A DNA stretch of 64,000 nucleotides from Occultella kanbiaonis (lineage in GTDB: Bacteria; Actinomycetota; Actinomycetes; Actinomycetales; Beutenbergiaceae): assembly GCF_009708215.1 (NCBI RefSeq), contig NZ_CP046175.1, positions 3,782,001-3,846,000 on the forward strand, in the 5' to 3' direction. Below the pieces are notes generated by a model that saw only the letters and a list, made by a program, of their open reading frames with translations, was not told the DNA's origin and ran no database searches. The position numbers and the translations under genes are program-made. Position 1 is the first letter of the stretch, and every line of letters begins with the position of its first letter. Shown piece by piece: positions 22,192 through 58,050 of this stretch.

Positions 22192-22237
22192 ATCGTCCGA
22201 AGCCTGCCGGCCGGACGCATCATCCCTGGCGGGTGAG
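22192..22237 (-). promoter_or_regulatory. LAL-box promoter of DUF1269 copy A
   Basis: The inverted half-site pair spans 22218-22237. On the minus strand GGATGA (22225-22220) is followed by exactly 22 nt and GACGAT (22197-22192), a plausible xAnnnT -10. The leader to the ATG at 22126 would be about 59 nt. One of eleven promoters in the window with this geometry. Confidence 0.6.
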
Positions 22238-22331
22238 CCCGGTATTGCCGACCTTCGTCCGGAACGCGTGAGGCGGGGACGGCTCACACCGACGAGGCTT
22301 GGCGCCGACCGAACGGGCCGAGGGAGGTGCG

Positions 22332-22538
22332 ATGCGCTACGACATCCGGGTGCGCGGGCGCTTCGACCGGGCTCTCGTGACCGCGCTGGGAGATATCACG
22401 ATCAGTACGGCGGACCACGAGACGACCCTGCACTGCCGGGTTCCCGACGTCGCCGCACTGGTCGGGATCCTGCACGCTCTCACGGCGCAGGACCTGACCG
22501 TGAGGGAGGTCCGGACGGCGGACTCCGAGTCCGGCTGA
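22332..22538 (+). CDS. Small MRYD-family protein A
   Basis: A 68-residue protein, MRYDIRVRGRFDRALVTALG at the N-terminus, with CRVPDVAALVGILHAL in the middle and LTVREVRT near the end. The layout suggests an alternating strand-helix-strand-strand-helix fold. GGGAGG lies 5 nt upstream of the ATG. About half its residues match protein B at 41258-41461, and two more distant relatives lie at 29204 and 44066. It is divergent from DUF1269 copy A and convergent, 5 bp apart, with a SulP gene. I do not recognise a named family. Confidence 0.8.
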   Translation: MRYDIRVRGRFDRALVTALGDITISTADHETTLHCRVPDVAALVGILHALTAQDLTVREVRTADSESG

Positions 22539-22543
22539 GCGCC

Positions 22544-24289
22544 TCAGCCGGCACCTGGGTCAGGTCCGTCGTCCACTTCGGTCTCGCCACCCGGTGCCGG
22601 TCCGCCGCCCGTCGCGGGCCGGTGTCGAACCCGTCGGCTGGTCGCCGCCTCCATGGCGTGCGTCGTGGATTCGCCGAGCATCTCCGTGGCCGGGAACACC
22701 TCGAGGGCCGCCCCCACCCCTCGGAGCCGCTCCTCGTCCCAGTACCTCACCATGTCCTCGCCGAGGCCGCTGAGATACAGGCGGCCTCCGTTCGCCTCGA
22801 GGCGGCGGGCGTAGTCGGAGACCACCGTGAAGAAGGTGACCCCGAGGGTGGTCCGGCCCCGCAGGCGCAGCACGACGGCGGCGTCGGTCGCCACCCCGGG
22901 ATCCGGCAGCCGGGCCTGCAGCGTACGCGCACCCGCGTAGAACAGGCTGCCGTAGACGTCCAGGACGACGACGTCATCCGCGGCGAGCGCCGCGGGCGCC
23001 GGACCCTCGATCAGGTGCCCCTGGTCGTCACGCTCCAGTCGCACCACCTTCAGGTCCACGGCCTCCTGGTTGAGCTGGACGAGGAGCGAGAGGGCCACAC
23101 CGATCCCGACTGCGACGACCACGGGCAGGGCGAGCGTCGCCACGAACGTCGTCGTGAGCGCGATCTGAGAACTGGCGCCGGCGCTCCAGATCGTCCGGAT
23201 CCGAGCAGGATTCAGCGAGCCGATCGCCGCATAGATCAGGATCGCGGCGAGGGTCGGCATCGCCACCCGGCCGACCAGACCCGCGAAGACCACCAGGATG
23301 AGCAGCATCCAGACGCCCGCGAAGACCGACGCCCAGTGCGTCCGGGCGCCGGCTGCGACGTTGATCGCGGTCTGCCCGACCGAACCGCCCACCGGCATCC
23401 CCCCGAAGGCCGCGGATGCCACGTTTCCCCAGCCCTGCGCGCCGAAGTCGCGGTTGGCGTCCGAGCGCCGGCCGGACGGGTTCGGCGCGGACTCCGCGAC
23501 GCCGGCGCCCTGCACCAGCACGATGGCAGCGACGGCGAACGCACCACCGACCAGGCCGAGGGAGAATGCACCGGGATCGGGGATCTGCGGCAGTGGAAGG
23601 CCCGTCGGTATCGTGCCGACGTCAGAGACGTCGGCCACGGTGAGCCCGAAGATCGCGACCGCGGCCGTCGGGATGACCAGCGCGATCAGCGAACTCACCA
23701 TCGCGAACCGTCCCTTGCCGAGGACGATGAGCAGCGCCAGGGCGGACAGCCCGATCACCAGGGATGCGGGATCGATGCGCCCGGGGTGGCTGATCACGTC
23801 CCAGGCCTTGAGCAGTGCCACGGCCCCGGACGCGTCGGCGCCGGCCAGGTCCGGCAGCTGCCCGAAGATGATGTTCACCGACACCCCGGTGAGGAAGCCC
23901 GTCATCACCGAGTGGGAGACGAACCTCGTGTACCGGCCCAGGCGCACCAAGCCGGCCACGACCATGAGCGCCCCGGCGATCAGCGTCAGCCAGATGATCG
24001 CATCCGAACGCTGCTCCGGCGCCACGGTCGCGATCGCCGAGCCCGCCGCGAGTGCGGCCGCGCTGGTGGTGGTGATGACCATCATCCGGGTGCTCGCGGT
24101 CATTCCACCCACCAGCGGACCCGCGAAGCTGGCGTAGAGCCCGTGTACAGGGTTCACCCCGGCGAGCACCCCGGAGGCCATGCCGTCCGGCACGGAGGAG
24201 ATCGCGCCCGGCAGCCCCGCGACGATGTCGGTTCGTAGGTCCTTCCACCGCGGTCGACGCCGCCGCGCGCGAGCGGACTCGTCGGTCAT
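22544..24289 (-). CDS. SulP family anion transporter with STAS domain (1)
   Basis: A 581-residue SulP/SLC26-type permease. The N-terminal transport core has about 12 hydrophobic segments, including DIVAGLPGAISSVPDGMASGVLAGVNPVHGLYASF, typical of the family. A C-terminal STAS domain (~440-545, DDVVVLDVYGSLFYAGA) follows, then an acidic Gly/Pro tail. Family substrates are sulfate, bicarbonate or other anions; which one applies here cannot be read. Its ATG overlaps the AI-2E permease stop by 4 bp, so the two are coupled and share the LAL-box promoter at 25.4 kb. Confidence 0.93.
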   Translation of the reverse strand: MTDESARARRRRPRWKDLRTDIVAGLPGAISSVPDGMASGVLAGVNPVHGLYASFAGPLVGGMTASTRMMVITTTSAAALAAGSAIATVAPEQRSDAIIWLTLIAGALMVVAGLVRLGRYTRFVSHSVMTGFLTGVSVNIIFGQLPDLAGADASGAVALLKAWDVISHPGRIDPASLVIGLSALALLIVLGKGRFAMVSSLIALVIPTAAVAIFGLTVADVSDVGTIPTGLPLPQIPDPGAFSLGLVGGAFAVAAIVLVQGAGVAESAPNPSGRRSDANRDFGAQGWGNVASAAFGGMPVGGSVGQTAINVAAGARTHWASVFAGVWMLLILVVFAGLVGRVAMPTLAAILIYAAIGSLNPARIRTIWSAGASSQIALTTTFVATLALPVVVAVGIGVALSLLVQLNQEAVDLKVVRLERDDQGHLIEGPAPAALAADDVVVLDVYGSLFYAGARTLQARLPDPGVATDAAVVLRLRGRTTLGVTFFTVVSDYARRLEANGGRLYLSGLGEDMVRYWDEERLRGVGAALEVFPATEMLGESTTHAMEAATSRRVRHRPATGGGPAPGGETEVDDGPDPGAG

Positions 24290-25386
24290 GTCGGTCCGTG
24301 CTGCGGCTCGACCGGGTCGTCACGCAGCAGCGCCGAGTCGATCAGCTCGTGCCGTCGCAGGTAGGTCGAGATCACCGCCTGCGCCGTGGCCGCGAGTGGC
24401 AGGCCGATGAACGCGCCCATCGGTCCGAGCACCGCGCCGAACGCGATCACCGCCACGAAGGAGACGGCAGGGTTGATCTCGAGCGCCTTGGACGAGACCC
24501 GGGGCGAGAGGATCAAATTCTCGAACTGTTGGTAGGCGATGATCCAGGCGAGCACCACCAGGCCCAACCCGATCGACTGGGCGCCGGCCACCGCGATCGG
24601 CAACGCCCCGGCGATGTAGGTACCCACGGTCGGTACGAACTGGGAGACGACGCCGACGAACAACCCGAGCGGCACGGCGTAGTCGATGCCGATCACCGTG
24701 AGGAAGAGCGTGGTGCAGACGGCCGAGACGAGCGCCAGCACGACGCGCGACGCGATGAAGCCGGAGAGCTTCTCCTGGGCGATGCCCCACATCGCGAGCA
24801 CGCGGGCCTGCCGCACCGGCTCCAAGGGCCGGCAGATCGCGATCCGCAGCCGGGGTCCCGCGGCAAGCATGTAGAAGGTGATCAGCAACACTCCGGTGGC
24901 GGTGATGAAGCCTGAGACGAGCAACCCACCGACGCCCAGGATCCCGCTGGCGAGATCGGCGCCGTACCGCTCCAGGGCCTCGGTCACGAGTGCCTGCCGG
25001 TCCGGAATCTGGCCCGCGAGTGCCGGATCCAAGCCTGCCCGGACCTCGACCAGCGCTTCGTCGAGGGCGGCGACGAGTTGCACCAGCTGGGTCACGAACA
25101 GGTTCCCGAAGACCGCGATGAGCGCGACCACGGCGACCAGGCCGCCCACCATGACGGTCGCGGTCGCCATGGCTCGTCGCCACCGGTGCCGCACCAGTGT
25201 GTTGACCGCCGGCTCCATCGCCAGAGCGAGAACGAACGCGATCAGAACCGTGGAGATGATTCCCTGGAGCGAGCCGAGGATCCCGAACGCGATCACCCCG
25301 ACGATCGCGGCGATGACCACCTGGACCAGCGCGCGCGGCAGCCATGGCGGTGGTCGTCGGTCCACGACAGGTAGGGACGCGCTCAC
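24286..25386 (-). CDS. AI-2E family transporter (PerM-like membrane protein)
   Basis: A 366-residue polytopic membrane protein of the AI-2E/PerM exporter family. It has N-terminal paired segments (LVQVVIAAIVGVIAFGILGSL), a soluble central part, and the conserved C-terminal block GLFVGVVSQFVPTVGTYIAGALP. I chose the GTG at 25386 because TACCGT ends 7 nt before it; the longer form starting at the GTG at 25425 would begin inside the LAL box. Members export autoinducer-2 or act in ion/antimicrobial efflux, but most are uncharacterised. First gene of a two-gene operon with a SulP transporter. Confidence 0.9.
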   Translation of the reverse strand: MSASLPVVDRRPPPWLPRALVQVVIAAIVGVIAFGILGSLQGIISTVLIAFVLALAMEPAVNTLVRHRWRRAMATATVMVGGLVAVVALIAVFGNLFVTQLVQLVAALDEALVEVRAGLDPALAGQIPDRQALVTEALERYGADLASGILGVGGLLVSGFITATGVLLITFYMLAAGPRLRIAICRPLEPVRQARVLAMWGIAQEKLSGFIASRVVLALVSAVCTTLFLTVIGIDYAVPLGLFVGVVSQFVPTVGTYIAGALPIAVAGAQSIGLGLVVLAWIIAYQQFENLILSPRVSSKALEINPAVSFVAVIAFGAVLGPMGAFIGLPLAATAQAVISTYLRRHELIDSALLRDDPVEPQHGPT

Positions 25387-25393
25387 CTCGTGG

Positions 25394-25440
25394 ACGGTAC
25401 GCCGGGGCCCTTCCGCTGGACTCACCCCATCCGCATGAAG
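25394..25440 (-). promoter_or_regulatory. LAL-box promoter of the AI-2E/SulP operon
   Basis: Motif at 25421-25440. On the minus strand GGGTGA (25427-25422) is followed by exactly 22 nt and TACCGT (25399-25394), a good -10. The GTG at 25386 then lies 7 nt downstream, giving a leaderless transcript. Confidence 0.65.
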
Positions 25441-25456: not shown

Positions 25457-28195
25457 TCAAAGGAGGTCGCGCTCGACTGCGATCCGGACCGCCTCCCGTC
25501 GCCCGGACGCGCCGAGCTTGCGGTAGACGGCGCGCATGTGCGTCTTCACCGTGTTCGCCGAGACGAACAAGGACTGTCCGATCTCGGCAGCCGTCATGGG
25601 CGAGCGGAGGTAGGTCAGGATCGTCAGCTCCCGTTCGGTGAGCTCCCAGAACGAGGGCGACCGGCGGACCGGGACCCGATCGCGCATCCGGGTGATCAGA
25701 TCGCCGACCAGGGTGCCGTACTGGGTCCCCCAGCCGAGGTGCTCGGACAACAAGGGGGCGAGGTCGGGTCCGAGCAGCGCGAACGGGCGCGTCAACTCTG
25801 ACTCCAGGGAGGTCCGGAGCGTCCGCTCAAGCAGAACGTGCGCGTCCTCGGCCGCACCCTCCGCAGCGAACATCAGGGCCTCGGTCAGGTTCGCGCACAT
25901 GGCGATGTGTGCGGTCCGCCGCGCGGCCGGGAGCCGGGCGAGCACACCACGAGCATCAGCGTACGTGCCGGCACGGCGGTGCAGATCCGCGATCCAGACG
26001 AGGATGCTTGACTCGAGTTGGCCCGGGTCCATCGACGTGACCCTGGCCAGTGCTGCGTCCGGGCGACCCGAGACGTCCTCGCGAAGCGCCTCCATGATCG
26101 TCGCGATCGGCTCGGTGAGAACGCCGTCCGGCTCCGGGTCATCCTGTCCTGCCTGCCGAGCAACCTCGACGAGGGAAGCATCATCGATGGACAGCCCCAC
26201 GATCATCAGGACAAGTGCCGCGTTCTTGCGCAGTTCTCCCTGACGGGGCTGGGCTTTCCGGATGGCCGCTTCCAGATGTCCTCGAGCCTGCTCAAGGTGG
26301 TCGAGCCAGTACTCGGCCGCACCGAGGACGAGATGGGCCGGGACGAGCGAACTGGAACCGGACCGCCCGGCGCGCCGGCCGCCGTCGACGGCAGCACGAG
26401 CGACGCGGGCGGCCTCGTCGAATCGGCCGAGGATCCACAACGGGATCGGCGCCATGGCGGTACTCGCGGCCGCGAGTTCGTGCAGGTCGCAACCGGAGGC
26501 AAGGTCCTCCGCCCGCTGGAGGTTCGCCAGGGCACCGGCGGGATCGTCGCCCAGCCGCACCGTCGCCTCGCCGATCAGGAAGTGCGCGAACGCCGCGACC
26601 GCACGGTCACCGGGGCCGTCCACCGGAAGGAGATCACGGACGCGCTCACGTGCGGTAGCGATCTCCGCATCCTGGCCGGCCACGAACAACTGGAGCAGGG
26701 CGTCCACGACTTCGACGTGACGCGCGCGATCCGTCGGCAGCGCCACGGCCCTGGCCCGCGCCCGCGCCCGGGTCGCGGAGCTCGTGCTGCGGTGGTCGAG
26801 GAACTCGCAGAGGGCGAGCACCAGGAGGATCTCGGCGTCGTCTGCCTCGGGGGCGGGCAGTTGCCCGCAGATCCGCCGCAGCAGTTCCGTCTCGCCCCGG
26901 AGCAAGAGGTCGGGCCACTGCGCTCGCACCAGCTCGAGCGCGAACGGACCGTCTCCCCCCGCCACAGCCAACGAGACCGCGAGCGGCACGTCGGCCCCAG
27001 CCCAGTACCGGGCCGCGCGACGACGCAGGGTCAGCGCCGCCGCCGGGTCGTTGCGCTGCAGGATCGCACGGCACTGCGACGCGAACAGAGCATGCCAGCG
27101 GAACTCCTGCTCGGTGCCACCGACCGCCGTGAGGAAGACGCCGGTGCGTACGCATTCCTCGAGCAGTGCTGCCCCATGCGGGTGAAGCACCGCGGCCAGG
27201 TCGCCGCGGATCCTGTCTCCGACGGTCGCGTGCAGGATGAACGTGGCCAGTTCGGGACGGAGGGTGCCGAGGATCTCGTCCGTGAGGTATCCGGTCAGCG
27301 GCAACTCCGCGTCGCTCATCGCTTCGAACCGCCGCCGCCAGTCCGTCGAGGTGCCGAACGCGACGATCGCCATCTTCGTCGCGACGGGCCAGCCACCGGT
27401 CGACTCGAGCAGGAGGTCGGTGTCCGGCCCGTCCAGCTCGAGCCCGGCCTGCGCCGCCAGGGCGGCCACCTCCGGCCGGCTGAAGCAGAGGTCGGCCTCC
27501 CGGAGCTCTCCGAGTTCACCGTCCAGCCGGCGCTTGTGCACCGGCAGGTTCGGGTCGGACCGCCCGGACAGGATGAGCCGCAGGTTGGGTGGCGCGAACC
27601 GCATCAACCGGCCGACCACCTCCCTGGACGCCACGTCATCCACGTCGTGCAGGTCGTCGATGACCAGCACGATCGGCGCCCGGAGCTCCTCCAGCGCCGT
27701 CAGCAGCGCGTCGTACTGCTCGGGATCCACCCGGTACCGCGGCACCAGCGCCGCCAGGCGGGCTCCGTCGGATCGTCCCGACCGGTGCAGCGCGGTCCGG
27801 AGGGCGTTGACCAGGCCACGGAACAACCGGCGCGGGTCGTTGTCGAACTCGTCGACCGTCAACCAGGCAACGGTCTGGCCCGTCGTCGCACACCACATCG
27901 TCAGCAGCGTGGACTTGCCGTAGCCCGCGGGTGCGGTGACCAGCGTGAGCCCGTGGCCGGCCACACACTCGGTCAGCCGGTCCATGAGCGCGCTGCGCTC
28001 GAGGAGATGGGCGCCGACGCTCGGAACCTCGATCTTCGCCGATGGCGTCGCCGTCGCCCAGGTCGCGTCCGCGCCGTCAGCCTCCGGAGGAGGTTGCTCG
28101 CGGGCAGCCAGGTCGAAGAGCGGGTGCCGACCGCCCGAGTCCGTGACGGAGCGCTCGGCGTCCTCGTGTGAGCCCCTGATCCCATCCGACGTCAT
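25457..28195 (-). CDS. LAL-type (MalT-like) LuxR regulator 1
   Basis: A 912-residue large ATP-binding LuxR-family activator. The layout is a ~55-residue N-terminal extension, a Walker A at 88-96 (APAGYGKST), a Walker B-like LVIDDLHDVDD, a long helical TPR-like sensor region, and a C-terminal LuxR helix-turn-helix. The HTH reads TERELTILTYL then AEIGQSLFVSANTVKTHMRAVYRKLG. In MalT-type STAND proteins, ATP and inducer drive multimerisation and promoter activation. It lies between the AI-2E/SulP operon and a GAP-family exporter. The HTH recognition segment resembles that of MalT. The ATG at 28195 is preferred over an upstream GTG. Confidence 0.9.
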   Translation of the reverse strand: MTSDGIRGSHEDAERSVTDSGGRHPLFDLAAREQPPPEADGADATWATATPSAKIEVPSVGAHLLERSALMDRLTECVAGHGLTLVTAPAGYGKSTLLTMWCATTGQTVAWLTVDEFDNDPRRLFRGLVNALRTALHRSGRSDGARLAALVPRYRVDPEQYDALLTALEELRAPIVLVIDDLHDVDDVASREVVGRLMRFAPPNLRLILSGRSDPNLPVHKRRLDGELGELREADLCFSRPEVAALAAQAGLELDGPDTDLLLESTGGWPVATKMAIVAFGTSTDWRRRFEAMSDAELPLTGYLTDEILGTLRPELATFILHATVGDRIRGDLAAVLHPHGAALLEECVRTGVFLTAVGGTEQEFRWHALFASQCRAILQRNDPAAALTLRRRAARYWAGADVPLAVSLAVAGGDGPFALELVRAQWPDLLLRGETELLRRICGQLPAPEADDAEILLVLALCEFLDHRSTSSATRARARARAVALPTDRARHVEVVDALLQLFVAGQDAEIATARERVRDLLPVDGPGDRAVAAFAHFLIGEATVRLGDDPAGALANLQRAEDLASGCDLHELAAASTAMAPIPLWILGRFDEAARVARAAVDGGRRAGRSGSSSLVPAHLVLGAAEYWLDHLEQARGHLEAAIRKAQPRQGELRKNAALVLMIVGLSIDDASLVEVARQAGQDDPEPDGVLTEPIATIMEALREDVSGRPDAALARVTSMDPGQLESSILVWIADLHRRAGTYADARGVLARLPAARRTAHIAMCANLTEALMFAAEGAAEDAHVLLERTLRTSLESELTRPFALLGPDLAPLLSEHLGWGTQYGTLVGDLITRMRDRVPVRRSPSFWELTERELTILTYLRSPMTAAEIGQSLFVSANTVKTHMRAVYRKLGASGRREAVRIAVERDLL

Positions 28196-28263
28196 CCGGC
28201 CGTCCCGCCCGCGTTCCCGACCCTGCCTGACGCACACCACTTCGTGAGCGTCCCCCTGGCGTC

Positions 28264-28326: not shown

Positions 28327-29001
28327 TCAGACGAGGACGGAGATCGCGTCCCCGACAACCTTGGTCCCCAGCACCAGCAACAGCACGGACATGATGACGG
28401 CATTGTTCGCCAACATCCAGGCCCGCATGCGCTCGAGCAGCTGCGCGGCCCGGTCGCCCATCACGAGGTAGAGGACGACCGGGAGGATGACGCCGATGCT
28501 GGCCACCACGGTGAACACCGCCAGGGCCACGAACTGGTCTCCGCGGGCGCCTGTGGCGTTCGCGATCGCGGTGGCCCCCGCCACGACCAGGAGCAGGTTC
28601 TTCGGGTTGATGCCGCCCAGGAGGAACGCGAGACCGAACGCCTTCACGGGGGTGAACGTCTCGATCGCGGCCATCCATTTCGGCACCACCGGCTCGACGT
28701 CGCTGCCGGGACGGCCACGCCACTGCTTCACCGCGAGGAACAGCAGCCCAAGGCCGAGTGCCAACTTCAGCAGGCCCACCCAGACGGGCGTGGCGCCGTC
28801 GTCCGCGCCGGCCGCGTCACCGACGAGCAGGAGCACGACCGACCCGACCGCGGCGATACCCGCGACCCAGCCGAGCACGAACGCGACGCCGTTCGACCTC
28901 GCCCGCGCCGAGACCAGCATCAACACGACCGCCACGATCGGCATCGGGGAAACCATCACGCCGACCGCGATCGGCAACGACTGACCGATCGCCTCGCCCA
29001 T
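28327..29001 (-). CDS. GAP/Sap family exporter-like membrane protein
   Basis: A 224-residue membrane protein with six hydrophobic segments in the LysE-like arrangement: SLPIAVGVMVSPMPIVAVVLML at the N-terminus and FGLAFLLGGINPKNLLLVVAGATA, with the conserved GGxNPKN, in the centre. This matches GAP (Sap, sulfolipid-addressing-like) proteins of actinobacteria, thought to export small molecules or lipids. GGAGG 5 nt upstream fixes the ATG at 29001. Upstream is a LAL-box promoter. Confidence 0.85.
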   Translation of the reverse strand: MGEAIGQSLPIAVGVMVSPMPIVAVVLMLVSARARSNGVAFVLGWVAGIAAVGSVVLLLVGDAAGADDGATPVWVGLLKLALGLGLLFLAVKQWRGRPGSDVEPVVPKWMAAIETFTPVKAFGLAFLLGGINPKNLLLVVAGATAIANATGARGDQFVALAVFTVVASIGVILPVVLYLVMGDRAAQLLERMRAWMLANNAVIMSVLLLVLGTKVVGDAISVLV

Positions 29002-29051: not shown

Positions 29052-29096
29052 ATCCTCGTCCGATCCGCCGTTAGCGTGCTCATCCGTAACGGGTGG
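29052..29096 (-). promoter_or_regulatory. LAL-box promoter of the GAP-family gene
   Basis: Half-sites TCATCC (29080-29085) and GGGTGG (29091-29096) are inverted. On the minus strand GGATGA is followed by exactly 22 nt and GAGGAT (29057-29052). In the plus direction GGGTGG is followed by 23 nt and GACACT (29120-29125), which could serve the small gene at 29204 but is weaker. Confidence 0.55.
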
Positions 29097-29203: not shown

Positions 29204-29413
29204 GTGCTCTACCAGGTCCTCGTGGACGGTGCCGTCCGTCCCGATCGGCTCATCGGCATCGACTACGTCAGCGTCACACCGATCGCGGATCAGACCCTCC
29301 TGGCCTGCGCGGTGCCGGATCCGGCGGGTGTGGCCGAACTCGTCAGCGTGCTGATCGACCACGGTCTGCGTTTCGAACGGCTCTGCCGGATCCTCGACGT
29401 CCGGCAGTTCTGA
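29204..29413 (+). CDS. Small MRYD-family-like protein C
   Basis: A 69-residue protein beginning VLYQVLVDGAVRPDRL, with ACAVPDPAGVAELVSVL and GLRFERLCRIL. It shares the strand-turn-helix rhythm and the VPD…A…L signature of proteins A and B. GGGAGG lies 5 nt upstream of the GTG. It sits between the GAP-family gene and the DUF7144/SulP/MscS operon. Family assignment is by eye at low identity. Confidence 0.65.
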   Translation: MLYQVLVDGAVRPDRLIGIDYVSVTPIADQTLLACAVPDPAGVAELVSVLIDHGLRFERLCRILDVRQF

Positions 29414-29420
29414 GAGGACT

Positions 29421-29464
29421 CATCACGTTGGGGTGAGGCAGTCGTCCCGCCCGCGATCCAGGCT
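29421..29464 (+). promoter_or_regulatory. LAL-box promoter of the DUF7144-SulP-MscS operon
   Basis: CATCAC (29421-29426) and GGGTGA (29431-29436) form the inverted pair. Exactly 22 nt after GGGTGA is CAGGCT (29459-29464) as -10. The leader to the ATG at 29523 would be about 52 nt and contains GGAGG. Confidence 0.55.
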
Positions 29465-29522: not shown

Positions 29523-29921
29523 ATGGCCAGGAAGGTTTCTGCCTGGGTCGGCTGGATCTGGTTCGCCGGGCTGATCATGCTCAGTTCTGGGGTCTTCAAC
29601 CTGCTGAGCGGGATCTACGCGGTGGGTGCACGCGACGTCGGCGTCGTCGAGGTCGGCACGCAGATCCTGCTTCTTGACGTCAACTCCTGGGGCTGGGTCC
29701 ACATCGTGATCGGCGCCCTGCTGATCCTGGTCGCCCTGTGCCTGCTCGCCGGGCAGGCCTGGGCACGGATAGCCGCCGTGGTCGTGGTCGGCCTGAACAT
29801 GGTCACCCAATTCGTCTATCTGCCGCTGACTCCGTGGTGGTCGATCGTCGTGATCGCCCTCGACATGGTCGTCCTGTGGGCGCTCATCGTGCACGGCGAG
29901 GAAGCCGAAAAGGTGTCGTGA
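29523..29921 (+). CDS. DUF7144-type small membrane protein
   Basis: A 132-residue protein with four hydrophobic segments: VGWIWFAGLIMLSSGVFNLLSGI, WVHIVIGALLILVALCLLAG, IAAVVVVGLNMVTQFVYL, and IVVIALDMVVLWALIVH. This is the pattern of actinobacterial DUF7144 proteins. GGAGG at 29510-29514 supports the start. First gene of a four-gene operon; its stop overlaps the next GTG. Function unknown. Confidence 0.85.
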   Translation: MARKVSAWVGWIWFAGLIMLSSGVFNLLSGIYAVGARDVGVVEVGTQILLLDVNSWGWVHIVIGALLILVALCLLAGQAWARIAAVVVVGLNMVTQFVYLPLTPWWSIVVIALDMVVLWALIVHGEEAEKVS

Positions 29922-30634: not shown

Positions 30635-30635
30635 G

Positions 30636-33259: not shown

Positions 33260-34147
33260 TCAGACGCCGGTCCAGGCGATCGGCGCGGCATGGTGCCGGA
33301 ACCGCACTTCTTGCCCCGGCCTCAGCTGACCGGCAGCGTCGCGTGCGGACTCGGTGAGCACGGCGATCACCGGGTAGCCGCCGGTCACGGGATGGTCCGG
33401 ACCGAAGATCAGCGGCTGCCCGTCGGGGGGCACCTGCACCGACCCGGCCACCACCGCCTCCGACGGAAGTTCGTCGTCGCGGGCGCGACCAAGCAACGCC
33501 CCGCGCAATCGCAGCCCGACCCGGTCGCCGACGTCGGTCACCCGATATCGGCCGGTGAACAGGGTCCGCCAGGCATCGTCGGTGAACCAGTCCCGGCGCG
33601 GCCCAGGCATGGCGTCGAGCATGAACCCCGGGCCCGACGGCGGAACCTGGTCGGCGTCGATCGTCGCCAGGGCGGAACGGACCCGCCCAACGGGCAGAAC
33701 GTCGCCTGTCCGCACCGGCGCGGGACCGAGCCCGGACAGGACGTCCGTCGAACGGGAGCCGAGGACCTCCGGCACGGCGATCCCGCCGGCAACCGCGAGA
33801 TACGTGCGCAGGCCCCACCGCGGCACGCCGAGCCGCACCACGGACCCCGACGCCACCGCCAGCACCTGCTGGGGCGACACTGCCACGGCGTCGACGGTGA
33901 CCGGGGCACTCGCCCCCGTCAGGGCGAACAGCAGGTCGGATTCGGCACGCACCGTCAGGCCGCCCATCGTGACCTCCAGCAGGGCGGCGCCGTCCTCGTT
34001 GCCAAGGCGGCGGTTCGCAGCGATCAGGGCACCCCGGTCGGCGGCTCCCGAGGGGGACACGCCGAGCGCGGCGAACCCGGGACGACCGAGGTCCTCGATC
34101 AGCGTCAGCGCTCCGGCCTCGAGCACGGTCAGGGCGCGCTCACTCAT
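33260..34147 (-). CDS. pxpC: 5-oxoprolinase subunit C (biotin-dependent carboxyltransferase family)
   Basis: A 295-residue PxpC. With PxpA and PxpB it forms the ATP-dependent 5-oxoprolinase that opens pyroglutamate to glutamate. The N-terminal TLIEDLGRPGFAALGVSPSGAADRGALIAANRRLGN is diagnostic, followed by TYLAVAGGIAVPEVLGSRSTD. The ATG overlaps the pxpB stop by 4 bp. Converges on the MscS gene. No LAL box is seen for this operon. Confidence 0.94.
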   Translation of the reverse strand: MSERALTVLEAGALTLIEDLGRPGFAALGVSPSGAADRGALIAANRRLGNEDGAALLEVTMGGLTVRAESDLLFALTGASAPVTVDAVAVSPQQVLAVASGSVVRLGVPRWGLRTYLAVAGGIAVPEVLGSRSTDVLSGLGPAPVRTGDVLPVGRVRSALATIDADQVPPSGPGFMLDAMPGPRRDWFTDDAWRTLFTGRYRVTDVGDRVGLRLRGALLGRARDDELPSEAVVAGSVQVPPDGQPLIFGPDHPVTGGYPVIAVLTESARDAAGQLRPGQEVRFRHHAAPIAWTGV

Positions 34148-34755: not shown

Positions 34756-34764
34756 CCGTCCCCC

Positions 34765-35936: not shown

Positions 35937-36380
35937 TCAGGCGTCCGCTTCGGTCTCGTCGAGGGACTCCAGGAACTCCTCCAGCGGGATCCGGCCGTTG
36001 GAGACCAGCTGCCCACCGGAGGCTCGGACCGCTGACGCGAACGGAACCGCCCACAGGTTCTCGTAGATCAGGACCGCGGCGGAGCTGCCGGGTTCGATGA
36101 CCCCGCCCACGTCGTCGAGATCGTCCTTCCCGATCAGCCCGGTCGAGGCGCCTTCGAAGACGCCCAGGTCGAGCTCGCCGTCGCCGTCCAGATCGGACAC
36201 GGTCAGCATCACGACCTCGCCGTCGACCTCCTTGCGGACGAAGAGCAGGTCGATGATCCTGATCAGGCCGGCGTCCACGAGATCGAGCAGCCGCGGAAAG
36301 ACATCACCGCGGAACTGGTTGCCCGGGAACTCCAGAACGAGGTAGTCGATGGGGCCGATCTCATCGAGAGTTTCGGTCAT
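35937..36380 (-). CDS. DUF6325 family protein
   Basis: A 147-residue acidic protein. IGPIDYLVLEFPGNQFRGDVFPRLLDLVDAGLIRIIDLLFVRKE matches the DUF6325 pattern, which resembles the soluble half of DUF1269 proteins. VLIYENLWAVPFASAVRASGGQLVSNGRIP is the second conserved block. No membrane segment. The gene sits ahead of a SHOCT gene and behind a LAL-box promoter. Biological role unknown; the recurring link with SHOCT and stress genes suggests a complex. Confidence 0.9.
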   Translation of the reverse strand: MTETLDEIGPIDYLVLEFPGNQFRGDVFPRLLDLVDAGLIRIIDLLFVRKEVDGEVVMLTVSDLDGDGELDLGVFEGASTGLIGKDDLDDVGGVIEPGSSAAVLIYENLWAVPFASAVRASGGQLVSNGRIPLEEFLESLDETEADA

Positions 36381-52900: not shown

Positions 52901-54406
52901 GTTCGGGACCTCGACCGCGATGGTGTTGGGGTGGGTGACGTCGTCGGGCACCTGGTCGGGGTCGGTGTCGGCGGTGAACGGGATCGTCGCGGACGCGCCA
53001 TTGACGAGATCCCCGGTGAACTCGACCGAGAAGCCCACGACGACGCAGTCGGGCGGCGGGTTCGGCAGCGTGTTGATGGTGGTGGTCTGCTCGCTGGGCG
53101 TCGTTCCGTCCGCGCAGGTGAAGGTCACGGTCGCCGCCGTCGCGCCCGTCGGCCAGGTGACACCGGTGCCGTCCCCATCCGGCCCGAAGCCGGTGAACGT
53201 CAGCGGGTCGTCACCTTCGAACGGGCTCGCGGTGTCCGGTGCGGGCTCGGTGATCGTCATCGATGTGACTGCGGTGCCCGTGTTGGTCCCGCCGAGCGTC
53301 ACCGTCGTCGGATCGCCGGCGCTCACCGTGGCCGGGTCGAAGCTCTTGCTCGCCTCGACCGAGTTGTTCGGTGGGGTGATGACGTAGGTGTCGGACGCCG
53401 TCGTCGGCGTGGACTCCTCGTCGCCGTGGGTCACCTGCGACGACGTGTCGTTCGTCACGGTCGTGGCCTCGGTGAGTTCGGTGACGGCGTCGCTCTGCTG
53501 GACCTGAACAGGGATCGTCGCGGTCGCGCCGGGCTGGATGTCACCGCTGAACGTGTACCGAACACCCTGGACGTCGCCCGGGTCGACGGTGTCGTCGAGC
53601 GGCAGCCACTGGGTTCCGTCCCAGTACTCCTGCGTGACGGTGTCCGCGTTCGGCGGAAGAACGATGTCACCGGTGCCGGTGTACTCGAGGTAGGTGAACG
53701 GGTTGGGCGTTGCCGTCGGGTCGACCGGGTCCTGGATGACGAGCGTGTCCACGGGGTCGTTGGAGGTGTTCGTGGCACCGAGAGTCATCGTCGCGGGCGT
53801 GCCGGGTTCGGCGAGGGCACCCTCGGGGTCGATTGACTTGGTCGTCTCGGAGTCGAGGACGAGCGGCACCACCGGCACGATCTCATCGGACGCCGAGGTC
53901 TCTGCCGCGTTGTCGGCGACGACCGTCGCGGTGTTCGTGATCGGCACGCCGTTCTCGCTGAACGGCAGGTTCGGGTCCACCTGTGCGGTGACGAGGATCT
54001 GGACCTGGCCGCCATTGTTGACGCTGTCCGCTGTGTAGGTGACCGTGTCCGAGTCCGTGTCGGCGATGAGCTCGCCACCCGTGGCGCCGGTCTGGCTCTG
54101 GATCGACGCGCTGACGAGTTCCAGCCCGTCGGGCAGCGGGTCGGTGAGCGTGGTCGGGACACAGGGGTCGGCGTTCGGGTCGGAACAGGAGACGGTCACG
54201 AACCATTGGACGTTCTCACCGGGCTGATAGGGGCCGGTACTGACCTCGGTCTTCTGGATGCCCCACGTGGCCGCGAACGCGGGCAATGCCGGAACGAGCG
54301 TGAACGGCACCACGAGCAGGGCCGCGACCAGCCCTGCCCAGGTGAGCCGGCGCCGGCTTCGGCGCCGGTCCGTCCTCGGTCGCAAGGCATGTGTCCGGTC
54401 GGTCAT
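46949..54406 (-). CDS. Giant wall-anchored DUF11/DUF5979 repeat protein
   Basis: A 2,485-residue secreted protein. MTDRTHALRPRTDRRRSRRR and a hydrophobic stretch ending ALPAFA-A form the signal peptide. The bulk (~40-1765) is a chain of DUF11-like beta-sandwich repeats with recurrent TVTNT, TKSIDPEGALAEPGTPATM and PGATATIPVQVQ patterns. Six DUF5979-type repeats follow to ~2436. The C-terminus is IPATGSDAGW, a membrane segment and RRRRR, a sortase signal variant. It is probably a cell-surface stalk or adhesin. The ATG overlaps the DUF389 stop by 4 bp, so a polytopic membrane protein and this surface protein are translationally coupled. Confidence 0.9.
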   Translation of the reverse strand: MTDRTHALRPRTDRRRSRRRLTWAGLVAALLVVPFTLVPALPAFAATWGIQKTEVSTGPYQPGENVQWFVTVSCSDPNADPCVPTTLTDPLPDGLELVSASIQSQTGATGGELIADTDSDTVTYTADSVNNGGQVQILVTAQVDPNLPFSENGVPITNTATVVADNAAETSASDEIVPVVPLVLDSETTKSIDPEGALAEPGTPATMTLGATNTSNDPVDTLVIQDPVDPTATPNPFTYLEYTGTGDIVLPPNADTVTQEYWDGTQWLPLDDTVDPGDVQGVRYTFSGDIQPGATATIPVQVQQSDAVTELTEATTVTNDTSSQVTHGDEESTPTTASDTYVITPPNNSVEASKSFDPATVSAGDPTTVTLGGTNTGTAVTSMTITEPAPDTASPFEGDDPLTFTGFGPDGDGTGVTWPTGATAATVTFTCADGTTPSEQTTTINTLPNPPPDCVVVGFSVEFTGDLVNGASATIPFTADTDPDQVPDDVTHPNTIAVEVPNADATASADLVTLVDRLATDTTKAISPSTIPAIPGQSVIVQLPTQLLPFGPDGSTTNADQIVISDPTDPNNPTDFWDHFVPTAVRSTDVPADSTLTVNYWNGTEWVPAPGCGPFTGPATVSCDLPADAQGVQFVYDSTGDGFPPGTQFQPNFVAEFTGPTTQDDLLTNCGASSASSDTVDPTPPAEGCATVDPFPVDGTGDLDFIEKTFLGADPATVLARSDDQVTAQITWSTNGFSGVDPMVISDIADPESTAIADSFYDAFDLVRVEPIDGSVDPLMQYDQVLGVELFIDGAWIAASGDPCPCDGSFPGYTLTADEQANATSVRLTYTESDNRGTSDPLAPQPGDGVARSTQADGRHLNLTFEVRDYRRGDPTAPVLGSTNGTIYNTADPGLVNDTARGTGTFDGTDYTDVDDDDVLILDQPLNVTVVKDWTGGPISVPPPDTPADAYPSTTVTIAGTNASAAKVDQLRLVEPGAPDSGDVQTGDGTSPFDVFTLTGISLAPPEGATSTTVTLTSVDGSTEQFDEAEAEALTAADLVDVVGVEVAYDGLVMPGATGAMDLTLQLRVADRYTDVPIYGDGGTIVVDENPVPNGAVATIDDPGGTDTDVRFAYDDAEMPLQVAGIDIVVGKSFDPAEIVEPSTGPVTMTLTGQPVGPSRAVEMVLTDDDPQFWNQYDFVGFDGATLTAPIQQVLVEAYVGGTFSEGADGVEVDGGEWVGADGEPSATFALPDGVDPPEVQGLRFTFTRTDGSIWENPANPLQEVPISVERREEMRTGGPVLPDLADNPPAPGETAPGVASNTVQGEITGADLVVDPETGDLVPVSNSADAAAQIVYVHATNGVTIVKDFGGVVTGSTQPPATAFPMNITVTNSGNRPISELVVTDPMPTDAEGAQLVLADVDEPFSYTLTGAAPDPANGDPLPTDPAEVTVEQVGDIESLTFSFPEGTVLEVGQVYTITVQVEFRIDVPPNTLVQNTAGVTGDRPWDACVGRLNPETGACEADSDVLTLPAAVLAQSKYVRATAGDELDVMVDPAAPDPDVECVPDADGFYAYPCTPVIIPGHDETWRIEVDNVGNLPMNRVVLYDRIATPGDTGSFADSPRGSQWEPLLSEASVPAIAVGPAGAELTLYYTTVDDYCMDDINDPINRPCPADPTTGWAPVPDELDQALLDSITAVQIVIDFPADELFSPGDFIALDFATTTPPEIPEAGDRSIAWNSTAASAVVTAGGSEFPLLPTEGTKVGVATAAGPLSVNKLVTGAGAENAPEEFLLFVQCTSAIGTPVETVLDPIPVTVVPGTPTVVPDLPYGAECTITEDGSNGETELIVGTVTIDSEDPADPTTIVAVNRYDVAGIDISKDVVSDAVDEDGQPVPFGPFEVTVECTFLGEPVYAEGYGPDDPMVVTIEDDETVEFDGLPVGSECTVSETGTGTASSVTITVQQGDGDPVTTPGPETAMTLVADADDGAAGNTVTLTNTYDVGQLDLLKVVDGEGAEAYGAGPFTLEVQCTFDDDGDGPGEPRVVYDDVVVLGAAGPLEAEIANLPTGAVCVVTETDDGGATSSTVEPASVTIGSGDAVTVTVTNTFDVGSIVLDKVVDGDGAEVYGDGPFTVTLECTYEAEPVAIPGGAEREITPGVPTTVAGLPVGAECTVTETDDGDATDTSMTVIVDGEEPVETDGTTAEIIVPAAESGGAPTSVGIVATNTFQLGSIQVDKLTEGDGAELYGAGPFGVTLECIFDGEPVEIPGGAEREITPGTPVLYEELPVGAECAVTETATAGATSTVIAPEDGAVTVPAPAEGDEAPAVVTVTVTNVFDLTSLEVIKEIDGDWAASGSDGRFEVSLACTWMVDGVATDVDLPGGPVRVLQAPDDLVATYADLPVGADCELTETVTGDADDTSITVEIDGTEPVTTTGATVLVPLFDTTAPGQAQVTVTNAFDPVPPPVPGPPDPQIPATGSDAGWLAGAALLLIGAGVFLVMVRRRRRTV
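47100..49140 (-). repeat. Six tandem DUF5979-type coding repeats
   Basis: About six units of 100-122 codons repeat the pattern (K-VVDG-GAE-YG-GPF-V-LECT … LP-GAECTVTET … VTVTNTF). The units with the K-VVDGDGAE core are most alike, implying duplication or recombination between units. Boundaries are approximate. Confidence 0.8.
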
Positions 54407-55443
54407 GGCTCGACCCTCTCCCCCACGGTATGGACGACGATGACCCGTGGCTCCCAAGGAACGAGACTATCCACCTGGTCAACCAACGGCGCGACGTCGG
54501 GCAACGCGCCGGGACTGCGTACCTCGACCACGAGGTCCTGTCCGAGCCAGGAGACGTCCTCGACGACGGCGTCGTCGATCCCCTCCACCCACTCCTGCGC
54601 GGCCGCACCGGCCTGCCGCAGCCAGAGGTCGGCGAGCAGCGCCTGCACCGAGTTCGCCACCATCGGGATCGCGACGACGAGGACCGCGACGAGAGCCACC
54701 AGTGTCGTCGAGCGACGCCGTCGGGCCCCTGCCGCGCCACGCGCGGCACGCGCCTGCGCACCGTACCCGACGGCGGAGAAGACCACCGTGGCGGCAACCA
54801 CGAGCGCGACGGCGTTGGATCCGAAGAGCAGGAGCGCACCGGCGGCGAGCGCCGGCTGGCCGACCCCGAGGCAGACGCCCACCACACCGAGCGGCGGGAC
54901 GAGCGAGATCGCGATCGCGATGCCCGGGAGGATGTCCCCGAGGTCGCGCCTGGTCAACGCGATGGCCCCCGCGAACCCGGTCGCGAACGCCGCGACGAGG
55001 TCACCGACGCCGGGCGCTGTCCGCCCGGTGACCTGCGAGTTGCCGGCAACCCCCGTCGTTGCGGGGAGAACCAGTGTCACCAGTAGGCCGAGCGCGACCA
55101 CGACGACCATGCCGCCCAGGACGTAGCCCACCGACCGCAGGATCGCCGACCGGTCACCCACGACGATCCCGAACCCGATCCCGAGGATCGGCGTGGACAG
55201 CGGTGCGATGATCATCGCGCCGATCACCGTCGCGGTGGAGTCGGTCACCACGCCGCAGACCGCGATCACGCCGGCCAGGACCAGCATCACCCAGAATGCC
55301 GAGCGTTTCGCCCGGGTGTCACCGTTGTCCAGGTCGAGCCTGTCGCCAACCGTCGCCGGGTCGCGGCGTTGCGAGTGCGGCACCAGCGCGTCGACGAGTC
55401 GACGCGGGCGACGCTCACCCGTGTCGACGGCCGGTGCACTCAT
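54403..55443 (-). CDS. DUF389 family membrane protein
   Basis: A 346-residue protein of the DUF389 family. The core KRSAFWVMLVLAGVIAVCGVVTDSTATVIGAMIIAPLSTPILGIGFGIVVGD is diagnostic. DLGDILPGIAIAISLVPPLGVVGVCLG follows, with about 8 membrane segments in total. The family is uncharacterised; a role as transporter or permease-like protein is often proposed. A LAL-box promoter lies 86 bp upstream. Its stop codon overlaps the start of the giant surface protein (ATGA), an unusual partnership. Confidence 0.92.
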   Translation of the reverse strand: MSAPAVDTGERRPRRLVDALVPHSQRRDPATVGDRLDLDNGDTRAKRSAFWVMLVLAGVIAVCGVVTDSTATVIGAMIIAPLSTPILGIGFGIVVGDRSAILRSVGYVLGGMVVVVALGLLVTLVLPATTGVAGNSQVTGRTAPGVGDLVAAFATGFAGAIALTRRDLGDILPGIAIAISLVPPLGVVGVCLGVGQPALAAGALLLFGSNAVALVVAATVVFSAVGYGAQARAARGAAGARRRRSTTLVALVAVLVVAIPMVANSVQALLADLWLRQAGAAAQEWVEGIDDAVVEDVSWLGQDLVVEVRSPGALPDVAPLVDQVDSLVPWEPRVIVVHTVGERVEP

Positions 55444-55503: not shown

Positions 55504-55549
55504 AACGTATGAGCCATGTCCTGGACCGACATCACCCGCCGCGGGTGAG
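55504..55549 (-). promoter_or_regulatory. LAL-box promoter of DUF389/surface protein
   Basis: Near-perfect palindrome at 55530-55549: TCACCCGC-C-GCGGGTGA. On the minus strand GGGTGA (55537-55532) is followed by exactly 22 nt and TACGTT (55509-55504), a good -10. The palindrome begins 12 nt after the arylsulfatase 2 stop and could double as its terminator. Confidence 0.6.
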
Positions 55550-55560
55550 CACGGGACGAG

Positions 55561-57885
55561 TCAGTCGCGAGCGAGCGCCGCCATGGCCTCGGTCTCGAGG
55601 TCGAGGTAGCTCTCGTCACTGACGTCGATCGCGACACCGAGGAGCTTGCCGCCCGTGAAGGCGAACGGGGCCTGGTACGAACGGCTGACCGAGTCCGCAC
55701 TGTCGAACCCGACGCACAGGCCGTCGCCGCAGAGCGTGAACTTGCCGACCTGGGCCCGCATCGGTCCCTCGGAAACGACCCGGTCATCGACGTAGAGCCG
55801 CGTGGTCCCGACCGACTCCTTGTTCGGCCCTGCCCCCTCGCGGACGAACTCCATCCCGAGCGCGTGTGGGCCGGGTGTGAGCACGTCGGAGACGAAGGTC
55901 TGCTCCGGTGGGATCCCGAGGAAGTTGTAGACGTAGTGCAGCTTGTGATCGGAGATGAACAGAGCGTGCCCTCCGAATCGCGAGCCGTGGGCGAACAGCA
56001 CGCCCGCGGCGTCGGCGCTCAGGTCGACGTCCGCGATGATCTTGAACGACCGTCCCCTGACATTCACGGCGACGCCCTCCGGTACTGCGCTGCTACCGGG
56101 GTAGTAGATGTAGCGGTTCCGGGGCGGCTCCGCCTGTGGTCGTTCGACCGTCAGCATCTCCATGACGGACCGGTCGTCCATCGGCAGGGCGTTGTACCTG
56201 TCCGCCTCGGTGAACCACGCTTGGATCAGCTCCTGCACCTTCTCGGGGTGCTGGTCCGCGACGTTGCGCGCCTCGGCTCGATCGGTGTCGACGTGGTAGA
56301 GCTCCCACGCGTCCTGGTCGAAGTGGCCCTTCCCGTTGAGGGGGGCGTGGGTCGCGGCCGCCTTCCAGCCGTCCTTCCAGACCCCTCGCGATCCACCGAT
56401 CGTGTAGAACTGCACCTGCTTCGTGGTCGGGGCCTGAGCGTCGTCGAAGCTGTAGCGCATCGACTTGCCCGGCAACGGCTCCTGTGCGAAACCGCGGTAG
56501 ACCTCGGGCATCTCCTGTCCGGTCACATCCAGGATCGTCGGCACGATGTCGGTGACGTGGTGGTACTGGTGCCGGATCTCACCCTTGGCCCTGATGCCCT
56601 TGGGCCAGTGGATGACCAACGGGTCGCACGTACCGCCCGCGTACTGGGCGTACCGCTTGAACATCTGGAACGGCGTGCTGAACGCCGCGGCCCAGCCGGT
56701 CGGGTAGTGGTTGTAGGTCTCCGCGCTGCCCAGGTCGTCCAGGCGGGACATGTTCTCGGTGATGTCGTCGGGGTAGTTGTTGAAGTACTTGTTCTCGTTG
56801 ACCGAACCGGCCGCCGAGCCCTCACCCGAGGCGCCGTTGTCGGCGCAGTAGAAGACGATCGTGTTGTCCAGTTGGCCGGTCTCCTCCAGGTAGTCGATGA
56901 CGCGGCCGACCTGGGCATCGGTGTACTCGCTGAAGCCGGCGAACACTTCCGCCATCCGTGAGAAGAGCTTCTTCTCGTCGTCGCTGAGCTCGTCCCACGG
57001 GCGGACGTAATCGGCCGCGTTGCGCTGTTCCTCGGGGATCGGGTTGAACTCCGTGAGCTCGGTGCCCTCGGGCAGGATGCCCTTCTCGATCATCTGACCC
57101 AGCACCCACCCGCGGTAGGCGTCGTAGCCGTCGTCGAACATGCCCTTGTACTTGTCTGCGTACTCCTTGGGACTGTGGTGCGGGGCGTGGTTGGCGCCCG
57201 GGCAGAACCACATGTACCAAGGCTTCGAGGGATTGGACGCCTGCTGATCGCGCAGCATCTTGATCGCCTGATCGGCGAGGTCCTTCGACAGGTGGTAGCC
57301 CTCCTCGGGCGTGTACGGCTGCTCGATGTAGTGGTTGTCCTCGCACAGGTCGGGGTACCAATTGTTCGTCTCCCCACCGAGGAAGCCGTAGAACCGGTCG
57401 AAGCCCATCTGGAGGGGCCACCGGGAGCGGTTGCCGCCCGCGGCGTTGTCCTCCTCGGGGACGTTGTGGTCCTTGCCGAGCCAGAAGGTGCTGTAGCCGT
57501 TGTCCTGCAGGATGTGCCCGACGGTCGCACACTCGTCCGGGATTCTGCCGGCGTTCCCAGGGAAGCCGTTGGTGGTCTCCATGATCGAGGCGACCCGGTT
57601 CGTGGTGTGATTCCGGCCCGTCAGCATGCACGAACGGGTCGGCGAACACAGCGCGGTGGTGTGCCACTGCGTGTACGTCAGCCCGTTGTCCGCCAACCGC
57701 TGCAGGGTGGGCATCGAGACCCGCCCGCCGTACGGCGACCACGACGCGAGCCCGGTGTCGTCATAGAGCACCACGAGCACATTCGGCGCCCCCTCGGGCG
57801 CCCGCGCCAGTTCGTACGGTGCCCAGTCCGGGACCGAGTCCCTGACGTCGAGGTTGATGACTCCGTTGAACTCCTTGGCTGCCAT
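55561..57885 (-). CDS. Arylsulfatase, Cys-type, large form (2)
   Basis: A 774-residue sulfatase. PNVLVVLYDDTGLASWSPYGG and ALCSPTRSCMLTGRNH (Cys80 for formylglycine) are intact, as are ANHAPHH and FYCADNGASGEGS. A C-terminal beta-rich domain (SFKIIADVDLSADAAGVLFAHGS) matches that of arylsulfatase 1, although the two proteins share only moderate identity. No signal peptide. GGAAGG lies upstream of the ATG. LAL-box promoter upstream at 58.0 kb, with a ~113-nt leader. Cytosolic sulfate-ester hydrolysis is inferred; the substrate is unknown. Confidence 0.92.
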   Translation of the reverse strand: MAAKEFNGVINLDVRDSVPDWAPYELARAPEGAPNVLVVLYDDTGLASWSPYGGRVSMPTLQRLADNGLTYTQWHTTALCSPTRSCMLTGRNHTTNRVASIMETTNGFPGNAGRIPDECATVGHILQDNGYSTFWLGKDHNVPEEDNAAGGNRSRWPLQMGFDRFYGFLGGETNNWYPDLCEDNHYIEQPYTPEEGYHLSKDLADQAIKMLRDQQASNPSKPWYMWFCPGANHAPHHSPKEYADKYKGMFDDGYDAYRGWVLGQMIEKGILPEGTELTEFNPIPEEQRNAADYVRPWDELSDDEKKLFSRMAEVFAGFSEYTDAQVGRVIDYLEETGQLDNTIVFYCADNGASGEGSAAGSVNENKYFNNYPDDITENMSRLDDLGSAETYNHYPTGWAAAFSTPFQMFKRYAQYAGGTCDPLVIHWPKGIRAKGEIRHQYHHVTDIVPTILDVTGQEMPEVYRGFAQEPLPGKSMRYSFDDAQAPTTKQVQFYTIGGSRGVWKDGWKAAATHAPLNGKGHFDQDAWELYHVDTDRAEARNVADQHPEKVQELIQAWFTEADRYNALPMDDRSVMEMLTVERPQAEPPRNRYIYYPGSSAVPEGVAVNVRGRSFKIIADVDLSADAAGVLFAHGSRFGGHALFISDHKLHYVYNFLGIPPEQTFVSDVLTPGPHALGMEFVREGAGPNKESVGTTRLYVDDRVVSEGPMRAQVGKFTLCGDGLCVGFDSADSVSRSYQAPFAFTGGKLLGVAIDVSDESYLDLETEAMAALARD

Positions 57886-58004
57886 GTCCGATGACCTTCC
57901 TCTCCGCGACGAGCGTTTCGCCGAACCCTGGGCCGCCCAACTGCCGGTCTGCGCATCGATCGGACCGATCGGAGCCGAGCGACCGGACGGCGGCTGCCCT
58001 TCCC

Positions 58005-58050
58005 ATCGTGCGCGGCGACGCGAATCGGATCGTCACCCGATCCGGATGAG
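58005..58050 (-). promoter_or_regulatory. LAL-box promoter of arylsulfatase 2
   Basis: Inverted pair at 58031-58050 (CGTCACCC … GGATGAG). On the minus strand GGGTGA (58038-58033) is followed by exactly 22 nt and CACGAT (58010-58005). In the plus direction towards LAL regulator 3, the 22-nt rule is not met. Confidence 0.6.

Follow-up and report, generated by a model that had tools for sequence, protein, structure and literature searches.

Which protein, acting through which sequence, could govern the many transport and stress-related genes that lie side by side in a 64,000-nucleotide stretch of the Occultella kanbiaonis genome (contig NZ_CP046175.1, positions 3,782,001 to 3,846,000; hereafter the window)? 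An original prediction, made from the sequence alone, proposed that inverted, MalT-box-like elements mark the promoters of one regulon in a 36-kb part of the window (22192–58050). Our analysis identified the unit as a 17-base palindrome, TCAYCC-N5-GGRTGA, which is present before about a dozen transcription units. These palindromes are very probably the operators of an activator belonging to the large ATP-binding regulators of the LuxR family (LAL), MalT-type proteins that combine a STAND ATPase with a GerE helix-turn-helix (HTH) domain, and the most likely activator is the one that we call LAL2. The co-regulation of the units as one module is well supported.

With at most one mismatch, the palindrome occurs 11 times in the window, every copy lying between 22220 and 58049, and all eleven promoters named in the original prediction carry it. 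When the window was shuffled 100 times with dinucleotides preserved, the count averaged 0.88 and never exceeded 3. A scan of spacers from 0 to 12 at the same stringency gave 11 copies for N5 and 0–2 for each other spacer in the 36-kb region, whereas N5 gave 0 and the other spacers 1–7 over 12 stretches of this genome that total 240 kb. Because N5 alone is enriched in the region and is absent from the 240-kb background, the spacer is exactly 5. The spacer had been given as N4/5, of which only the N5 part stands: N4 does not occur in the region at one mismatch, and its single exact place in the genome is outside the window, so that this candidate was rejected. In the entire genome (5.65 Mb), 11 exact palindromes were found, six of them in the 36-kb region, and the reversed-pattern control gave 0. 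Single half-sites, among which GGGTGA is common in this region, are only slightly denser in the region (1.85 per kb) than in the rest of the window (1.62) or in the background (1.25). Therefore, the inverted pair is the unit, and the lone half-site was rejected as one.

The palindromes are also placed at a nearly constant distance from a -10 hexamer of the form xAnnnT. The proposed distances were all recovered: 22 nucleotides (nt) downstream at nine promoters (palindromes 22236-, 25438-, 29096-, 29420+, 41139-, 42883-, 44156-, 55548- and 58049-, signs denoting the strand read), 21 nt at 44140+, which faces LAL2, and 23 nt at 36523-, which faces the DUF6325 gene. Three oriented promoters can be added to the earlier list, namely 22255+ and 41177+ (both 22 nt) and 29080+ (23 nt), each of which precedes a small paralogous gene. 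The palindrome copy at 42906 has no proper -10. A -10 placed at -12 to -7 would put the palindrome at about -51 to -35, and hexamers at 22 or 23 nt predict a transcription start 34–35 nt past the palindrome. The same geometry was found in other genera: out of 223 distinct exact sites, 190 are flanked on one or both sides by xAnnnT at 22 or 23 nt, whereas 17 other offset pairs, used as a control, give 7–26 of the same 223 sites. This set excludes the loci of the genus as well as L021–L028, L067 and L068; L021 and L022 duplicate sites already among the 223, and the sites of L067 and L068 lie inside genes and have no -10 at 22 or 23 nt.

A weight matrix trained on 120 sites from outside the genus, with the window unused, recovered the promoters of the window. 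At ≥18 bits, it yielded 17 oriented matches in the window, all within 22.0–58.3 kb, and 0 in a 280-kb background, and at ≥8 bits it yielded 27 in the window versus 12 in 280 kb of the same genome. The palindrome and xAnnnT columns of this matrix are fixed by construction, because the training sites were chosen for an exact palindrome and for xAnnnT at 22 nt. None of the 17 matches was flagged inside a called gene, which, together with the shuffles, agrees with the expectation that the motif would be rarer in coding and in shuffled sequence. The anticipated enrichment over shuffled sequence and conservation in related genomes were likewise seen.

Three LAL regulators lie in the same region, as had been proposed, and were identified by Pfam: LAL1 (25457–28240, minus strand), LAL2 (44250–46856, plus strand) and LAL3 (58137–60854, plus strand; start uncertain, 58137 or 58314). 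These paralogues consist of approximately 900 amino acids (aa), with an N-terminal ATPase and a C-terminal GerE/LuxR HTH (GerE E-values of 1e-14, 9e-11 and 6e-7); some of the AAA models score below their own cut-off. LAL2 is the best candidate for the cognate activator. A palindrome of its own was not found for LAL1, and the site at 58033, when read on the plus strand towards LAL3, has no full xAnnnT. The NCBIfam MalT model (NF003420) scores LAL2 at 135 bits against a cut-off of 537, and no mal or other maltose-utilization genes were found among the window genes scanned with Pfam.

Is the palindrome accompanied by LAL genes elsewhere? Among 39 relatives (own genome included), the four members of the genus contain 9–13 exact sites each, with 0 for the reversed control. 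In the class, 195 of 296 genomes have at least one match, and up to 19 were found in a genome; because many counts of 1–2 barely differ from the reversed control, only high counts are informative. Such counts were found in several families, including Jiangellaceae. In one genome of another family (G027), the sites are scattered, yet the same kinds of genes follow them, namely SHOCT/PLDc_N (two), DUF6325, DUF1269, DUF7144, sulfatase and CLC genes by Pfam and a SulP permease by eye. Relatives of LAL2 (E ≤1e-10) were sought in 39 genomes picked for high or low site counts and were present in all 22 motif-rich genomes (≥7 sites) versus 6 of 17 motif-poor ones (Fisher P 7e-6). Among the sampled genomes of the Jiangellaceae genus g67, the only one without sites (G160) also has no LAL2 match. 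Sites also lie near LAL genes more often than expected in the four genomes covered by a distance test: those within 10 kb of a LAL number 6 of 11 in O. kanbiaonis (G000; expected, 0.30), 9 of 19 in G170 (0.11), 7 of 19 in G209 (0.23) and 2 of 7 in G009 (0.13).

The converse approach started from LAL loci fetched via peptide patterns of the recognition-helix region; at least 533 were found, and the 80 best were kept, a few of which come from a genome that also supplied another of them or another fetched locus. The 80 loci contain 127 exact N5 sites; any other spacer between 0 and 12 yields 0–4, six permuted half-sites yield 0–2 and the reversed pattern yields none. At least one exact site is present in 64 of the 80 loci, and the site-bearing loci include those of Jiangella, Amycolatopsis, Lentzea, Nocardia, Dactylosporangium, Actinoplanes, Streptomyces and metagenome-assembled genomes of Nitriliruptoraceae. 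Only 12 of the 127 sites lie wholly within called genes, though genes cover 83% of the sequence. In Jiangellaceae, an exact site is found within ~200 bases of the LAL gene in 8 of 10 loci (L072–L080 and L088), on both sides in four.

The genes behind the sites are also shared. Outside the genus, 171 complete genes begin within 260 nt downstream of an oriented site (42 sites without such a gene were excluded), and 83 of them resemble genes of the window: DUF7144 (24), DUF6325 or DUF1269 (22), a small protein described below (11), sulfatase (7), SulP (7), SfLAP (5), AI-2E (3), LAL (3) and DUF389 (1). The other 88 were scanned with Pfam, and nine of them also with NCBIfam. Among the Pfam matches listed (25 of 43 families) are PLDc_N (18), SHOCT (17), DUF308 (11), alkyl sulfatase (6), MFS (6), trehalase-like (4), sulfatase-modifying FGE (2), amino acid permease (2) and CLC (1). 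DUF308 is the family to which HdeD belongs. The NCBIfam scan identified one glutamate decarboxylase and one GadC antiporter, both above the cut-off.

The regulon had been predicted to be undescribed, and in this respect the prediction failed: the motif, its position and the type of regulator were published in 2020 for Actinoplanes sp. SE50/110 by Droste et al. (PMC7567727). In that strain, a region of 51 genes carries TCATCC-N5-GGATGA at 17 of its transcription starts, with the 3' end of the motif 34.4 ± 1.0 nt from the mapped starts; deletion of the LAL gene malT (ACSP50_3915) lowers the expression of 42 of the 51 genes, and its overexpression raises that of 39 (PMC7567727). Expression of the Actinoplanes regulon is also reported to be higher on maltose. 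Deletion of a second LAL of the region had a slight effect, according to unpublished data mentioned in PMC7567727. The same paper describes motif-bearing parts of the region in other Micromonosporaceae and notes the likeness of the motif to the Escherichia coli MalT box. Both systems comprise a palindrome at many promoters of one region and LAL genes inside that region, a large gene island with two LAL genes in Actinoplanes and three here; the start distance of 34.4 nt in Actinoplanes is what the 22/23-nt geometry of the -10 would predict for O. kanbiaonis, and maltose-metabolism genes are absent from both. The genera differ, as do part of the genes: the gene list in the main text of PMC7567727 includes an arginine deiminase operon and amino acid enzymes, whereas O. 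kanbiaonis has sulfatases, SulP, DUF1269 and DUF7144, and GGGTGA half-sites are common. The window regulon is an additional case, with partly its own targets, of the kind of regulon published for Actinoplanes.

The MalT regulon of E. coli and Klebsiella likewise has a LAL/STAND activator and a core of GGA(T/G)GA near -35 (cited in PMC7567727). The predicted likeness of the half-site to the MalT box is upheld as far as this core is concerned; the arrangement differs, since a strict inverted pair with N5 is found here and LAL2 scores far below the cut-off of the MalT model. The Streptomyces LALs SCO0877 and SCO7173 have the same large ATP-binding, LuxR-HTH architecture, and the excerpted text of PMC3282765 gives no binding motif for them. 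Among the matches listed from the openly licensed literature, no second description of the palindrome regulon was found besides that in Actinoplanes, and nothing fitting a LAL/SHOCT/sulfatase or acid-stress regulon. Judging from these matches, the company of site and LAL across Actinomycetota, the shared target set and a LAL-linked protein of 66 residues appear to be new in print. The published Actinoplanes case is extended here by the small protein, the broad distribution and the set of common targets. These targets, together with the arginine deiminase genes of Actinoplanes, would point towards sulfate esters and towards acid and envelope stress, so that a name borrowed from the E. coli protein, MalT, may be misleading.

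The small protein is encoded next to LAL2 (43866–44066, minus strand) and has three further paralogues in the window (22332–22538, 29204–29413 and 41258–41461, all plus strand), the four being 66–69 aa in length. No Pfam or NCBIfam family was found among the copies scanned, and a profile of the protein gave no match in the 280-kb background of its own genome. The profile matched in 38 of the best 80 LAL loci, and 30 of the 41 matches lie within 600 bp of the LAL, a result that is partly circular because 31 of the 34 profile rows came from those loci; an exact palindrome is present within 260 nt upstream of only 7 of the 41. In a less circular test, with the same 39 genomes used for LAL2, 21 of the 22 motif-rich genomes encode the protein, as does 1 of the 17 motif-poor ones (Fisher P 7e-9). 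In one genome (G289:C16:174252-177310), a relative of LAL2 adjoins the small protein, and a one-mismatch palindrome lies nearby (L082 4631). An AlphaFold2 model of the 66-residue protein predicts strand-helix-strand-strand-helix-strand (mean pLDDT 89.5), an order of elements that would be that of the ferredoxin-like fold. A PDB sequence search with the profile gave weak matches only (four sequences; best E 0.033).

According to a passage in PMC10427625, E. coli MalT is kept inactive by partners such as MalY. By analogy, the small protein may be a sensor of the LAL or a sequestering inhibitor, although a MalY-like role is a guess. More broadly, we put forward tentatively, as a possibility, that palindrome, LAL and 66-residue protein constitute a conserved three-part signalling system across Actinomycetota, in which the small protein would be a dedicated partner of the LAL and the regulon would serve a response to acid, envelope stress and sulfate esters, not maltose metabolism. 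Its proposed members are glutamate decarboxylase (GAD), GadC, HdeD-like proteins, CLC, antiporters, two unrelated types of sulfatase and the FGE maturase.

How could the palindrome work? By analogy with E. coli MalT, a signal would cause the LAL to bind ATP and oligomerize, which would place GerE domains on the two inverted half-sites. Since the palindrome covers about -51 to -35, the bound LAL would stand in for the -35 element and bring RNA polymerase to the weak xAnnnT promoters (class II activation). In this way, a single regulator would switch on about a dozen units, its own gene among them, and LAL1 and LAL3 may take part. A module under a MalT-like LAL is supported by the independent matrix, the conservation, the co-localization with LAL genes and the published Actinoplanes experiments; activation as the direction, binding by LAL2 and a division of labour among the three LALs would be the expected details. 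To our knowledge, actinobacteria have many LAL regulators, few of whose target sites have been defined. One LAL lineage now has an operator of defined sequence, a constant promoter geometry and a list of targets that can be read from the sequence in many genera. Therefore, the regulon, its signal and the small partner protein become directly testable.

Other explanations of the palindromes were considered. In a genome of 70% GC, where single half-sites are frequent everywhere, the sites might be a product of chance or base composition; however, the spacer specificity, the shuffles, the reversed and permuted controls, the -10 spacing and the conservation across families led us to reject this origin, which is scarcely credible. 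It is improbable, but less far-fetched, that another protein of the GerE family, such as a NarL-type response regulator, binds the palindrome and that the LALs are mere targets or neighbours. Inverted half-sites centred near -43 would suit dimeric LuxR/NarL-type regulators too, and only LAL2 has a clear site of its own (LAL1 has none). A further candidate regulator is encoded by a frame of 585 aa at another place in the genome (G000:C1:270858-271073), which contains a stretch 49% identical to the HTH of LAL2. Against such a protein stand the strong enrichment of the site at loci fetched by LAL similarity, its position beside the LAL gene in most of the Jiangellaceae loci and the changes in target expression upon LAL deletion or overexpression in Actinoplanes (PMC7567727). 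That LAL1 or LAL3, or a mixture of the three, acts instead of LAL2 alone, perhaps each at a subset of sites, is somewhat unlikely. The three are located among the sites and resemble one another in their HTH segments, the two LALs that flank the cluster in G009 are both distant from LAL2 (E 1.3e-28 and 4e-17), and the Actinoplanes region also holds two LALs; against this reading, LAL2 has the two-way exact site and is the neighbour of a small-protein gene, and the Jiangellaceae LALs most closely related to it adjoin exact sites.

Several observations weigh against LAL2-type regulators as the readers of the palindrome. Binding by LAL2 and the dependence of expression on it in O. kanbiaonis are deduced from sequence comparison. 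The number of sites decided which genomes were compared for LAL2, and the number of LALs rises with genome size. G009 has 0 sites within 5 kb of a LAL, 16 of the best 80 LAL loci are without an exact site, and G289 has 0 exact sites despite a LAL2 relative and the small protein. Because recognition-helix patterns were used and only the best 80 loci kept, the LAL-locus scan is silent on other types of LAL. Four other LAL-like genes of the O. kanbiaonis genome are far from all exact sites. In the set excluded from the 223 sites, taken as a whole (the genus and a few loci of the same family), xAnnnT is present at 22 or 23 nt in only 28 of 44 distinct sites, and three of the five exact sites unlinked to the region have, by eye, no -10 at these distances.

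The sites in the window are arranged as follows, with gene starts approximate since they came from a simple GC-frame caller; Pfam placed the downstream genes in the families DUF1269 (two), SulP (two), AI-2E, SfLAP/GAP, DUF7144, DUF6325, Na+/H+ exchanger, DUF389, DUF5979 and arylsulfatase (two). At the left end, an exact palindrome (22220–22236, minus strand; -10 GACGAT at 22 nt; 31.3 bits) faces the DUF1269-A gene (21629–22126, minus strand), and one with two mismatches (22255–22271, plus strand; GAGGCT at 22 nt; 19.1 bits) faces the first small-protein gene. A palindrome with one mismatch (25422–25438, minus strand; TACCGT at 22 nt; 20.7 bits) precedes the genes for an AI-2E transporter (24286–25320) and SulP (22544–24289). 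The two-way palindrome at 29080–29096, also with one mismatch, serves the SfLAP/GAP gene (28327–29001) in its minus reading (GAGGAT at 22 nt; 22.4 bits) and the small-protein gene at 29204 in its plus reading (-10 at 23 nt; 21.4 bits). At 29420–29436 (plus strand), a one-mismatch copy (CAGGCT at 22 nt; 25.6 bits) lies before the DUF7144 gene (29523–29921), which is followed by closely spaced open reading frames (ORFs) up to 33214, including SulP-STAS (30663–32369).

The exact palindrome at 36507–36523 (minus strand; CATTCT at 23 nt; 27.2 bits) precedes the DUF6325 gene (35937–36380); the C-terminus of the product of a downstream ORF is SHOCT-like, as judged by eye only. Another exact copy, at 41123–41139 (minus strand; GAGGAT at 22 nt; 29.0 bits), serves DUF1269-B (start near 41033) and arylsulfatase 1 (38088–40451), and a copy with two mismatches at 41177–41193 (plus strand; GATGCT at 22 nt; 19.7 bits) the small-protein gene at 41258. 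The gene of the Na+/H+ exchanger family (41499–42794) is preceded by a one-mismatch palindrome (42867–42883, minus strand; TACGGT at 22 nt; 21.0 bits). The exact two-way palindrome at 44140–44156 faces the LAL-linked small-protein gene in its minus reading (CACCGT at 22 nt; 26.7 bits) and LAL2 in its plus reading (AACGCT at 21 nt; 21.0 bits). Two further exact copies on the minus strand lie at 55532–55548 (TACGTT at 22 nt; 27.5 bits), before the DUF389 gene (54403–55383), and at 58033–58049 (CACGAT at 22 nt; 29.1 bits), before arylsulfatase 2 (55561–57885). The DUF389 gene is overlapped by that of a DUF5979 surface protein (46949 to 54406/54457, minus strand), which has 2502 residues and six DUF5979 stretches. 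Between these units, a 5-oxoprolinase-like set (33260–35496, minus strand), consisting of LamB/YcsF and two carboxyltransferase-type genes, has no palindrome of its own at one mismatch or fewer.

Five exact palindromes of the genome are unlinked to the region, and two of them, at 689140 and 943167, have a -10 at 22 nt by eye. The former, with its -10, lies upstream of another sulfatase, of the type found in the window (L001). The proposal of one co-regulated module is supported by the matrix, the conservation and the LAL co-localization, except that the module is not confined to the 36 kb. At 943167, the palindrome is flanked by a sulfatase gene and a HAD hydrolase gene, and its -10 faces the latter. 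At 5238308, no -10 is present at 22 or 23 nt, and the gene behind the palindrome matches DUF1269 only weakly, below the cut-off (25.9 versus 26.9 bits). Another of the unlinked sites that lack this -10 precedes a DUF87/HerA-like gene of ~1089 nt (L003 5001) and seems to be conserved in three sister genomes (L057 5380, L061 5285 and L064 5724), where an exact palindrome likewise precedes a gene of that length. This palindrome may work differently or serve another promoter; none of its four copies has xAnnnT at 22 or 23 nt, and that in L061 has one at 21.

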